From NCBI GenBank assembly GCA_026710825.1, contig JAPOQH010000103.1:1-64000 (forward strand): a DNA stretch of 64,000 nt, given 5' to 3'. Made by a program: the position numbers and the translations under genes. Numbering within the stretch: the stretch's first letter is position 1; each line of letters begins with the position of its first letter. The notes under the pieces were generated by a model. That model saw only the letters and a program-made list of their open reading frames with translations, did not search any database and was not told where the DNA came from. The DNA is from Chloroflexota bacterium. GTDB taxonomy: Bacteria > Chloroflexota > Dehalococcoidia > Lucifugimonadales > UBA3495. Positions 60,045 through 63,534 of this stretch are shown here, piece by piece.

Positions 60045-60158
60045 CCTGCCGCCGGTCCCGATCTCCCCACGTAACCGGTTGCGGACACCGGGCGCGGCGG
60101 CGATACTAAGGCACATCCAGACAGAAGCAAACTGGGCCCGGACGGGCCGGAGTTGATC

Positions 60159-61031
60159 ATGGCATTTGCGCATCCCGAGTTCTTGGTTTCCACCGATTGG
60201 CTGGCCGAACACCAGGCCAATGACGACGTGCGTGTTTTCGAGACCACCGTCTTCCTCCACCGTGGCGGGGGCACAGTCCGCGCCGAGTCTGGGAGGGTAC
60301 AGTACGAAACGGGACACATACCCGGCGCGGGTTTCCTTGACCTGCAGGCCGATTTCTCCGACAACGACCAACCCTACCGATTTATGATGCCTTCGCCGGA
60401 GGCGTTCGCTGAGGCGGCCGGGCGGCACGGCATTTCGGAATCGTCAAAGCTGGTGCTCTACGACCGCCTGGGATCTCAGTGGGCGGCTCGTTTCTGGTGG
60501 ATGTTCCGCTCCATGGGTTGCACCGGCGCCGTCGTGCTGGACGGTGGTTGGACCCGCTGGAGTGGCGAGGGACGCGCAGTATCAACCGAACCCGCGACCT
60601 ACCCGCCGGCGACCTTCAGCCCTACCCCCGACCCGGCGCGCTTCGCAGACCTGACCGAGGTCAAGGCGTTTATGGAGTCTGGCGGCGGCAGTTGCCTGAT
60701 CAACGCGCTGGGTCGTGATCAGCACTCGGGGGCAGACGGCGGTCAGGGTTACGGGCGGGCCGGACATATCCCCGGCGCAACTAACGTGCCCTCGGGCGAA
60801 CTCACCGATCCCGACACGGGTCTTTTCCGACCGGCTGAGGAACTGGCCGCGCTCTTCGCTGACGCCGGCGCCAACCCCTCACAACGGGTCGTGACCTACT
60901 GTGGCGGAGGCATCGCCGCATCCAACGACGCCTTCATCCTGGCGATGCTGGGTTACCAGAACGTCGCTGTGTACGACGCGTCGATGTCGGAGTACACCGC
61001 CGATCCGTCGCTGCCGCTGGTGGCAGACTGA
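60159..61031 (+). CDS. Tandem-rhodanese sulfurtransferase (thiosulfate/3-mercaptopyruvate type)
   Basis: 290 residues from ATG 60159 (GGAG ~8 nt upstream). Two rhodanese domains: domain 1 GHIPGAGFLDL, LVLYDRLGSQWAARFWW (Asp at the loop where the active Cys would be); domain 2 GHIPGATNVPSGE and VVTYCGGGIAAS with the catalytic Cys. This Cys-only-in-domain-2 arrangement is standard for TST/MST enzymes. Moves sulfur to cyanide or thiols. It is 32 nt upstream of the LLM gene. Confidence 0.9.
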   Translation: MAFAHPEFLVSTDWLAEHQANDDVRVFETTVFLHRGGGTVRAESGRVQYETGHIPGAGFLDLQADFSDNDQPYRFMMPSPEAFAEAAGRHGISESSKLVLYDRLGSQWAARFWWMFRSMGCTGAVVLDGGWTRWSGEGRAVSTEPATYPPATFSPTPDPARFADLTEVKAFMESGGGSCLINALGRDQHSGADGGQGYGRAGHIPGATNVPSGELTDPDTGLFRPAEELAALFADAGANPSQRVVTYCGGGIAASNDAFILAMLGYQNVAVYDASMSEYTADPSLPLVAD

Positions 61032-61063
61032 GGACGCATGCACGGTTAGGACGGGAGGACGCC

Positions 61064-62122
61064 ATGACACAGGCCAACGCTCTTGACGCCACCCTCGACT
61101 TCGGCCTCTTCGACTGGATCGAGTGGGACAAGTCTGCGCCCAGCGAGATTTTCGAGAACCGGCTGAGGATGCTGGAGTACGCCGACCGGAGCGGTTTCTA
61201 CAGCTACCACCTGGCAGAACACCACATCACTCCGCTGAGCGTATCCCCCTCGCCGGCAGTTTTCCTGGCTGCGGCGGCACAGCGGACGACGAATCTGCGC
61301 CTCGGCCCGCTGGTGTTCCTGCTCCCCTTCTACAATCCCATCCGGCTGTACCATGAGATCTGCATGCTGGACAACCTGAGCAACGGGCGGCTGGACCTGG
61401 GCGTCGGCCGTGGGGTGTCGCCGGTGGAGGCTGCGGAGTTCGGCGTCGACCTGGACATCAGCTGGGAGATGTTCAACGAGCAGATGGACATGTTCGTCCG
61501 CGGGTTCACCACGGGCAAACTCGAACACAAGGGCAAGCACTACACCTACGACGATATCGAGTTGTGGATCCCGCCTCACCAGAAACCCTACCCGCCGCTC
61601 TGGTACGCGAGCAATAACATAGAGACCGTGCCGTGGATGGCTCAGCACGGCTTCAACACCCGCACCGTGTTTGCCGACAACGCCGGCGTGAAGGCCCACT
61701 ACGACCTGTACAAGCAGGTCTGGAACGCCGACCGGCTGGCCGACGGTATGAACAGCCATGTGGACGCGCCCAAGCTGGGGCTGGTGCGCCACATGTACAT
61801 CGCCGATACCGACGAGCAGGCCCGGGCCGAAGCGAAAGCAGCCTATCGGACGTGGTTCCACAACATCGACTACCTGTGGGCAAAGAACGGCCTCGACCGC
61901 CTGGGCGCGATGCGGGATTTCGACTCACTGGAAGCCAGGGACATCGTGATCGTGGGCAATCCCGAGACGGTGCGGGAAAGGGTGCAGCGGGCAATCGGCG
62001 AGACCGGCATCAACTACTTCTGCCCCATATTTGCGTGGGGCGACCTGACCCCCGACCAGGTGATGCGCTGCATGGGCCTGTTCGTCAATGAGGTGATGCC
62101 GAACCTCAAACCCTACGGATAG
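61064..62122 (+). CDS. LLM class flavin-dependent monooxygenase (second)
   Basis: 352 residues, luciferase-like fold. FDWIEWDKSAPSEIFENRLRMLEYADRSGFYSYHLAEHHI, NLRLGPLVFLLPFYNPIRLYHEICMLDNLSNGRLDLGVGRGVSP and the C-terminal GNPETVRERVQRA are typical. GGGAGGACGCC precedes the ATG. Uses FMNH2 and O2 on an unknown substrate, plausibly an alkane, sulfonate or aromatic compound. Followed 77 nt later by the LUD gene, so possibly co-transcribed with it. Confidence 0.88.
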   Translation: MTQANALDATLDFGLFDWIEWDKSAPSEIFENRLRMLEYADRSGFYSYHLAEHHITPLSVSPSPAVFLAAAAQRTTNLRLGPLVFLLPFYNPIRLYHEICMLDNLSNGRLDLGVGRGVSPVEAAEFGVDLDISWEMFNEQMDMFVRGFTTGKLEHKGKHYTYDDIELWIPPHQKPYPPLWYASNNIETVPWMAQHGFNTRTVFADNAGVKAHYDLYKQVWNADRLADGMNSHVDAPKLGLVRHMYIADTDEQARAEAKAAYRTWFHNIDYLWAKNGLDRLGAMRDFDSLEARDIVIVGNPETVRERVQRAIGETGINYFCPIFAWGDLTPDQVMRCMGLFVNEVMPNLKPYG

Positions 62123-62199: not shown

Positions 62200-62817
62200 A
62201 TGACTTCGTCCGCGACCAATGCTCCCGCCACCGTAGAGTCCATCAACCGCACCATTGAGGCCCTTGCGGACCGCAACGTGGACGCCGTGCTGGTGGAGAG
62301 CCGGGAGGCAGCGCTGGCCAAGCTACTGGAGTTGGTCCCGGAGGGCTGCGAGGTTTTCGTCAGCACGTCGGAGACGCTGGACACCATCGGCTACACCGAG
62401 TACATGCACGGCAATGACCGCTACATCAACCTCCACGACCAGATGCTGGCGCAACCTGACGCGGCGTCGCAGCGGGAATTTCGCCGCACTACCACCACCG
62501 CGGACTACTTCGTGGGCAGCGTGCAGGCCATCGCCGAGACCGGCGAGATAGTCGTCGCCAGCGGATCCGGCAGCCAGATCGGCGCGTTCGCCTATGGCGC
62601 GCGGCGCGTTATCATGGTAGCCGGCACGCAAAAAATCTGCCCGACGCTGGCCGAAGCCGAAGCCCGCACCCGCGGTTACACCCTGGAACTCCACGACCGC
62701 TGGTTGGAGGGCAGGGGATCAGGCCCGGCTCCGATCGGGAAGTTCCTGGTAATGGAACATGAGCCGGTGGTCGGGCGGATCACGATGATCCTGATACCCG
62801 AAAGCTTGGGCTGGTAG
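62200..62817 (+). CDS. LUD-domain protein (LutC/YkgG-like)
   Basis: 205 residues. NRTIEALADRNVDAVLVESREAALAKLLELVPEG, then DYFVGSVQAIAETGEIVVASGSGSQIGAFAYGARRVIMVAGTQKI are the signature of the LUD domain. LutC acts with LutA/LutB in lactate oxidation, but neither is next to it, so a stand-alone CoA-transferase-like or lactate-related role is only suggested. AGGAG is 8 nt before ATG 62200. Confidence 0.85.
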   Translation: MTSSATNAPATVESINRTIEALADRNVDAVLVESREAALAKLLELVPEGCEVFVSTSETLDTIGYTEYMHGNDRYINLHDQMLAQPDAASQREFRRTTTTADYFVGSVQAIAETGEIVVASGSGSQIGAFAYGARRVIMVAGTQKICPTLAEAEARTRGYTLELHDRWLEGRGSGPAPIGKFLVMEHEPVVGRITMILIPESLGW

Positions 62818-62842: not shown

Positions 62843-63370
62843 TCAGTCGAAGAAAATCGGCTCCCCGTTCAGCGTAGATTTGTCCTCAAACGGCGTGGGG
62901 TTGGCAACCGCCGCCCGCACCCAGCAGCCGTTGCGCGCGTTGCGCAGCACTGCCGCAACCCGCTCCGGGTCATCGGGCGACTCGATCTCGTAGTTGGTTT
63001 CGACCTTGGGCGCGCTGGCCTGGATGGTTCCCTGCAGGACGGATCCTTCCAGCCCGAAATGCACCGCGATATGCGCCCGGACGCCGGTGATGTCCACTTT
63101 CATCATTCGAGAGTACCTCTCGATCTGGGTCATCTCTCAAAACGCGATGGAGGCCGCGAAGTAGCTCAGCGGCGCCGGCGCCGTGTGATTGCCGCCAACA
63201 TTGGGCCCCTCGTCGCAGTAGATGGTGAACTTCACATCGCGGCCCACGAAGGCGCGGCGCAGCATGTTGCCCATATCCTCCACGTCCACTTCGGTCACCG
63301 TAGCGCGGCGACTCTGTCCCGGCGGGAAGGGATCATAATTCGGTTCTGGTCTCTCAGTCGCTCCTGCCAT
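62843..63370 (-). CDS. OsmC-like redox protein, candidate selenoprotein (in-frame TGA = Sec78)
   Basis: A continuous 175-residue frame if TGA at 63139-63137 is read through. Part 1 (63370-63140) begins MAGATERPEPNYDPF and includes the OsmC hallmark GGNHTAPAPLSYFAASIAF. TGA falls exactly where OsmC-type proteins have their first redox cysteine (AASxAFC). Part 2 continues in the same frame (EMTQIERYSRMMKVDI) through the OsmC C-terminal half, with the partner Cys149 (RNGCWVR). GGAGG lies 4 nt before ATG. A 7-bp hairpin begins 13 nt after TGA. A nonsense mutation is the alternative. Confidence 0.72.
63107..63123 (-). promoter_or_regulatory. Candidate bacterial SECIS hairpin
   Basis: On the minus strand TCGAGAG, loop GTA, CTCTCGA: a perfect 7-bp stem with a loop beginning with G. 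The loop lies 20 nt after the TGA codon, within the spacing seen for bacterial SECIS elements (apical loop with a G roughly 16-37 nt after UGA). It also falls inside coding sequence, as bacterial SECIS elements do. Confidence 0.6.
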
Positions 63371-63534
63371 TTATCCTCCGTATCGTCCAATTGCGCCAAC
63401 CCTACCACGCGGAGTTGGGAGGGACAACCGGCCTTGGAACAGCGCTCAGCGCCATAGCCCGGCGATCAATGACGGGTCAATGGTATTGAGCATGTTATAT
63501 TGGCGTACGACATACCGAACCGCGAGTATTATTC

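Follow-up and report, generated by a model that had tools for sequence, protein, structure and literature searches.

What does an in-frame TGA mean in the middle of a gene that otherwise reads as intact? The gene in question encodes an OsmC-like protein and lies in the window (i.e., the whole stretch of 64,000 nucleotides that was analysed), which belongs to contig C80 in a 3.86-Mb draft genome (91.67% complete). Four lines of computed support, namely the gene itself, the conservation of the codon, the covariation of a downstream hairpin, and the presence of the decoding machinery, indicate that UGA at codon 78 is very probably decoded as selenocysteine (Sec), with a probability of roughly 95%.

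On the minus strand, the frame that runs from the ATG at 63370 to the stop at 62843-62845 contains a single internal TGA, at codon 78 (Table 1). The earlier note described this frame as OsmC-like on both sides of the TGA, and in a Pfam profile search PF02566 (OsmC) indeed spans the codon (E 3.3e-12); one small correction concerns the motif quoted upstream of the TGA, whose actual reading is HTAPAPLSYFAASIAF. When the piece after the TGA is searched alone, its match to PF02566 drops to 1.2e-4, below the Pfam cut-off, and the 77 residues before the TGA give no Pfam match at E 1. The GGAGG that precedes the start codon is the probable ribosome-binding site of the gene. In public data, the gene's nearest relatives come from metagenome-assembled genomes labelled Dehalococcoidia, SAR202 cluster, Chloroflexi, or Chloroflexota.

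Table 1. Positions of the OsmC-like gene, its elements and its neighbours in the window, and of a second OsmC-like gene of the same genome
Feature	Position	Strand	Details
OsmC-like gene, predicted selenoprotein	62843..63370	minus	175 residues, Sec at 78; based on reading frame, PF02566 and NF041052
In-frame TGA, candidate selenocysteine residue 78	63137..63139	minus	first conserved Cys site, motif U-E-M-T
Cys149 codon, second conserved redox site	62924..62926	minus	Cys at this site in homologues
Terminal stop TGA	62843..62845	minus	TAA or TAG at the same end in several homologues
GGAGG just 5' of ATG 63370	63375..63379	minus	sequence upstream of the start
Predicted SECIS hairpin	63107..63123	minus	7 bp stem, loop GUA; based on fold, compensatory changes and synonymous minimum
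LUD-domain gene	62200-62817	plus	convergent with the OsmC-like gene
Rhodanese gene (two matched stretches), then luciferase-like monooxygenase gene	60153-62122	plus	
Second OsmC-like gene, Cys at site 1, TGA at site 2 (outside the window)	G000:C15:56413-56859 = L055:1384-1833, L119:1501-1947	plus	same genome

The predicted protein scores 164.4 bits (cut-off 95) against the NCBIfam model NF041052, 'OsmC-related (seleno)protein' (OsmC_like_Se); the match covers positions 2-144 of 144, and the model has Sec at the first Cys site within a UxxT motif (here UEMT). All 51 sequences of alignment A2, which was drawn from 77 candidates with the window included, match NF041052 at E 0.001; the 77 candidates omit 12 of the 88 loci found in the order (nine with TGA and three with TGC). 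An OsmC-like selenoprotein with UxxT has been reported since 2005, when three sequences from the Sargasso Sea were described (PMC1088965); the GOS survey contributed five more such sequences to the literature (PMC2398784), and OsmC-like selenoproteins also figure in two reviews, from 2022 and 2026 (PMC9312934, PMC13188914). The statement in the earlier note that Sec-containing OsmC-like proteins occur in marine metagenomes is thus borne out by the available parts of these reports, so that the window gene belongs to a family already known. The NF041052 match and the U-E-M-T motif, taken together, identify it as a predicted selenoprotein of this already described kind. Like the marine UxxT proteins (PMC1088965, PMC2398784), it has a hairpin after the UGA, and nothing essential differs as far as the available text of those two papers describes them. 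However, the accessible accounts of the early surveys concern a few marine metagenome sequences, whereas here the gene resides in a SAR202-like genome and 78 of the 250 order genomes carry the TGA form.

If Sec is inserted, Sec78 would be the attacking (peroxidatic) residue of a small thiol/selenol redox protein, and Cys149, which is likely its partner, would resolve it as a selenenylsulfide. A lipoyl or thioredoxin system might supply such a protein with electrons for the reduction of organic hydroperoxides or a comparable oxidant. This proposal follows the Ohr/OsmC scheme, in which a peroxidatic and a resolving residue cooperate and lipoyl systems supply the electrons (PMC8945050). The Ohr/OsmC/YhfA thiol peroxidases (PF02566) share with the window protein the domain and the two redox sites in the same order (here Sec78 and Cys149), but they carry Cys at the first site, where the window protein has Sec. 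By analogy with these enzymes, a peroxidase role can be predicted with evenly balanced odds. The activity is not assured because YhfA-type relatives, according to the same source, lack the Arg and Glu of the Ohr/OsmC peroxidases (PMC8945050). Within alignment A2, E54 and R85, candidates for such a pair, are invariant; R85 is, however, coded inside the hairpin, so that a constraint on the RNA could be what holds it. The possibility that the protein is a selenoprotein but not a peroxidase, i.e., that it acts as a selenol/thiol redox or binding protein with an OsmC fold and another substrate, falls only a little short of an even chance. It would fit the names given to the nearest PDB relative (3cje, just an OsmC-like protein) and to the family model (OsmC-related), and it is countered by the conservation of both redox sites, as in Ohr/OsmC peroxidases.

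The reading of codon 78 as Sec draws much of its strength from relatives. A search of the order gave a match in 79 of 250 genomes, and all 88 loci other than that of the window were read: codon 78 is TGA in 85 and TGC in three. The TGC loci are distant, and since two of them are second copies in genomes that also have the TGA form, this form is present in 78 genomes. The 11 nearest GTDB relatives, 70-95% identical and included among the 88 loci, all have TGA at codon 78, which makes 12 of 12 with the window. Across the phylum, 47 of 400 genomes match the window form at 1e-12. In the best 30 of the 48 matches, a set in which the window gene and two of the order loci counted above recur, site 1 is TGA in 26 and TGC or TGT in four (one close, at 121 bits, and three distant, at 63-69 bits). 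The 18 weakest matches stand outside the codon count; 16 of them have no stop and two have one TGA. The closest solved relative by sequence profile, the OsmC-like protein PDB 3cje (chain 3cje_A, E 3e-19), aligns at both sites and has Cys at each, CVMTQ lying opposite the TGA motif and KKGCF opposite Cys149. The TGA therefore occupies the family's first Cys site, as had been proposed, with Cys there in homologues from the order, the phylum, and 3cje_A; the replacement of Cys by Sec that the earlier note envisaged at this codon agrees with homologues that carry either TGA or Cys. The second site, said in the same note to be kept, is Cys in 30/30 phylum loci (again the best 30 of 48 matches) and in 85/86 TGA-bearing sequences, window included. 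Three relatives are damaged or miscalled: L039 has a second TGA directly 3' of the Cys149 codon, L105 has Ser in place of Cys149 together with an early TGA, and L114 has a deletion 3' of the Sec codon.

A bacterial Sec codon should be followed by a SECIS element, for which a figure legend in a recent review gives a model with 16-37 nt between UGA and loop, a stem of 4-16 bp, a loop of 3-9 nt with G in its first two bases, and an MFE of at most -7.5 (PMC13188914). The predicted hairpin of the window, with 20 nt between UGA and loop and a fold of -9.4 kcal/mol (45 nt from the TGA), agrees with this model on all four criteria as they appear in that text. Its energy alone is unexceptional (z -1.67, with 8 of 200 shuffles equally good), and the same applies to the relative L041, folded with its flanks (z -1.61; 15/200). 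Covariation is more informative. It was scored on an alignment of 77 distinct sequences from which L114 was left out on account of its deletion, and the cell counts include related sequences: pairing holds in 85.3% of the 539 cells (64.6 on average in the shuffles), double-sided changes occur in 92 cells (26.7 on average), and the covariation score is 0.466 (shuffled 0.158), none of these values being reached in any of 500 shuffles. The percentage paired is favoured because the structure is the window's own fold. When the partner was moved by one to three columns, the slid controls gave at most 49.2% paired, 32 cells, and a score of 0.145. The other two measures are at the level of the shuffles, namely the number of pairs with a double-sided change (5 vs. 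4.9; 459/500 shuffles as high) and of further pair types (13 vs. 12.2; 204/500 as high), so that three of the five measures exceed all 500 shuffles and two do not. The 14.7% of unpaired cells stem in part from rows with a shifted loop. Stem variants such as GAGAG/CUCUC, GAGCG/CGCUC, GUCCG/CGGAC, GCGCG/CGCGC, and GGCA/UGCC illustrate how the two arms vary. No SECIS model in Rfam matched near the gene, and across the whole window no Rfam match passed the threshold; the one lncRNA match returned close to the OsmC-like gene was sub-threshold and was taken as chance.

Among the explanations that dispense with Sec, the best placed is that two proteins are made, translation stopping at the TGA and restarting at the ATG at 63133, the second codon after it. 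This ATG is shared by 41 of the 85 aligned sequences, including the window and its close kin; nonetheless, it is absent from the other 44, in which TGA and hairpin persist, and in 40 of the 85 there is no ATG, GTG, or TTG within the first four codons after the TGA. The split would, moreover, fall at the first redox site and so break the OsmC domain in two. Restart is therefore very unlikely.

Selection on the gene bears on a further alternative, i.e., that the TGA is a mutated or miscalled TGC/TGT in a decaying gene. In 12 close sequences, the pooled dN/dS is 0.129 for codons 10-77 vs. 0.073 for codons 89-175; the protein after the TGA is under purifying selection, and this selection is stronger than that on the part before it. 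Of 147 ten-codon windows, the one with the least synonymous change is formed by codons 79-88, which lie under the hairpin (pS 0.14; median 0.51), and the two longest stretches of invariant bases in the gene across these 12 sequences (14 and 13 bases) are found at the TGA and in the hairpin. The low dN/dS after the TGA and the synonymous minimum argue against a dying or truncated gene, which would be expected to show neither. The earlier note had called for a measurement of purifying selection downstream of the TGA and had taken the conservation of this part to speak against decay; both the pooled values and the recurrence of TGA in 85/88 order loci support that view. Damage or miscalling in a few relatives (L114, L039, L105) is what decay or sequencing error might lead one to expect, but with the same TGA at nearly all order loci, the constraint on the downstream codons, and a covarying hairpin, this explanation can be given almost no weight for the window gene. 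Equally negligible is the idea that this genome recodes TGA throughout, as Trp or Gly, a reading to which the frame open across the TGA would lend itself: of six window genes inspected, TGA ends osmC, the rhodanese gene, and the LigB gene, the osmC genes of close relatives stop at the same place with TAA or TAG, so that TGA keeps its stop meaning here, and the internal TGA aligns with Cys rather than with Trp or Gly.

Decoding of codon 78 as Sec would require dedicated machinery, and a search for selA, selB, selC (tRNA-Sec), and selD, which had been recommended at the outset, found all of them in the genome. The tRNA-Sec scores 66.4 bits in Rfam (cut-off 47) and is identified by ARAGORN as tRNA-SeC with anticodon tca. 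SelA (451 bits) and the C-terminal wing domain of SelB (80.8 bits) are over their family cut-offs, and SelD reaches 376.8 bits against a cut-off of 125 (L057, G000:C87:44310-45233). The selD gene also contains an in-frame TGA, flanked as HCAG[TGA]AAK; because this TGA falls within CAG[TGA], the usual place of Sec in SelD, selD is probably a selenoprotein gene itself. A second tRNA-Sec match, at 47.9 bits just above the cut-off, is read by ARAGORN as tRNA-Ser. In 14 named control genomes, SelA was found in E. coli and Methanocaldococcus jannaschii and the SelB wing in E. coli only, and the tRNA-Sec and SelD models gave weak matches in all 14, over the cut-off in five and two, respectively. Within the order, SelA was found in 71/78 TGA-bearing genomes vs. 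130/172 others (Fisher p 0.0036, ignoring kinship). It was not found in 7 of the 78; SelB is present in four of these seven (one partial), and the other three genomes are 55-78% complete. At the level of the phylum, SelA is present in 62 of 64 matched genomes tested and does not separate holders of Sec from holders of Cys. In the window's genome, UGA at codon 78 would be decoded by tRNA-Sec and SelB, guided by the hairpin that starts 13 nt 3' of the UGA.

The neighbourhood of the gene is partly conserved in the 11 GTDB relatives. The LUD-domain gene is kept beside it in eight of them, with a partial match in a ninth; the luciferase-like gene is near it in seven, with one partial match at a contig end; and the rhodanese and luciferase-like genes are both near it in five, one rhodanese match being partial. 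This conserved neighbourhood in the 11 relatives gave no functional hint. Elsewhere in the same genome there is a third OsmC-like gene (G000:C10, L053:1294-1827), which by eye has Cys at site 1 and has no internal stop; an overlapping frame 3' of it has, again by eye, a rhodanese-like translation.

The second OsmC-like gene of this genome, on contig C15, carries the two residues in the reverse arrangement. In the PF02566 search of its own genome it reached 25.1 bits (cut-off 27.5), with a TGA; read through this codon, it yields 149 residues and 32.7 bits, over the cut-off, so that the window form and the paralogue both match PF02566. Its first site is Cys53; its second, residue 120, is the TGA, with the surrounding sequence WKKR[TGA]PLYGSVAVATP. 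The paralogue occurs in 56 of 250 order genomes, each of the 56 listed matches having one TGA; 30 of these matches were read, its own included, and site 2 is TGA in 30/30. Phylum-wide, it was found in 28 of 400 genomes, site 2 being TGA in 24 of 28 loci and Cys in four (own locus included), and site 1 is Cys in all 27 phylum loci that cover the site. Two phylum members of this second-site family, L152 and L166, have a TAG in addition to the TGA inside the matched frame. Both forms are found together in 36 order genomes, the window form only in 42, and the paralogue only in 20.

The paralogue also has a hairpin within 45 nt after its TGA, with a 6-bp stem in which 168/168 cells are paired across 28 distinct sequences. 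Double changes number 8 against a shuffled mean of 1.8 (0/500 shuffles as high), and pairs with a double change 2 vs. 0.9 (18/500 as high); four of the six pairs are invariant, further pair types are not above the shuffles, and the energy alone is unremarkable (z -0.67). The paralogue scores 20.4 against NF041052, far below the cut-off of 95, and no other NCBIfam model matches at E 0.001 among 30 aligned members. For the paralogue, a search by sequence among solved structures yielded a single weak hit (9wo1, E 0.0015). The two OsmC families likewise match each other weakly when their profiles are compared (probability 14%, E 0.002), yet both redox sites align. Those parts of the open-access literature that the search covered contained no description of an OsmC protein whose second site is Sec. 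Judged from its sequence, the C15 paralogue probably represents an undescribed selenoprotein family. That these Chloroflexota have two mirror-image OsmC selenoproteins, of which the site-2 Sec paralogue has its own SECIS and belongs to an undescribed family, is probable, if less secure than the decoding of codon 78. If true, a single cell would have selenium in two versions of one fold, placed at the attacking site in the one and at the resolving site in the other.

The C15 paralogue is the more novel result; taken alone, the window gene is a modest one, to which the mirror-image pair adds interest. Nonetheless, through the window gene a family originally known from marine metagenomes is now located in SAR202-like genomes, where it is widespread and strongly constrained. 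Such genes would be split or overlooked by an annotation that treats TGA as a stop. Finally, the gain that selenium brings at the attacking as opposed to the resolving position has otherwise been approached with mutants; together, the window gene and its paralogue offer a natural comparison of the two within the same enzyme fold.
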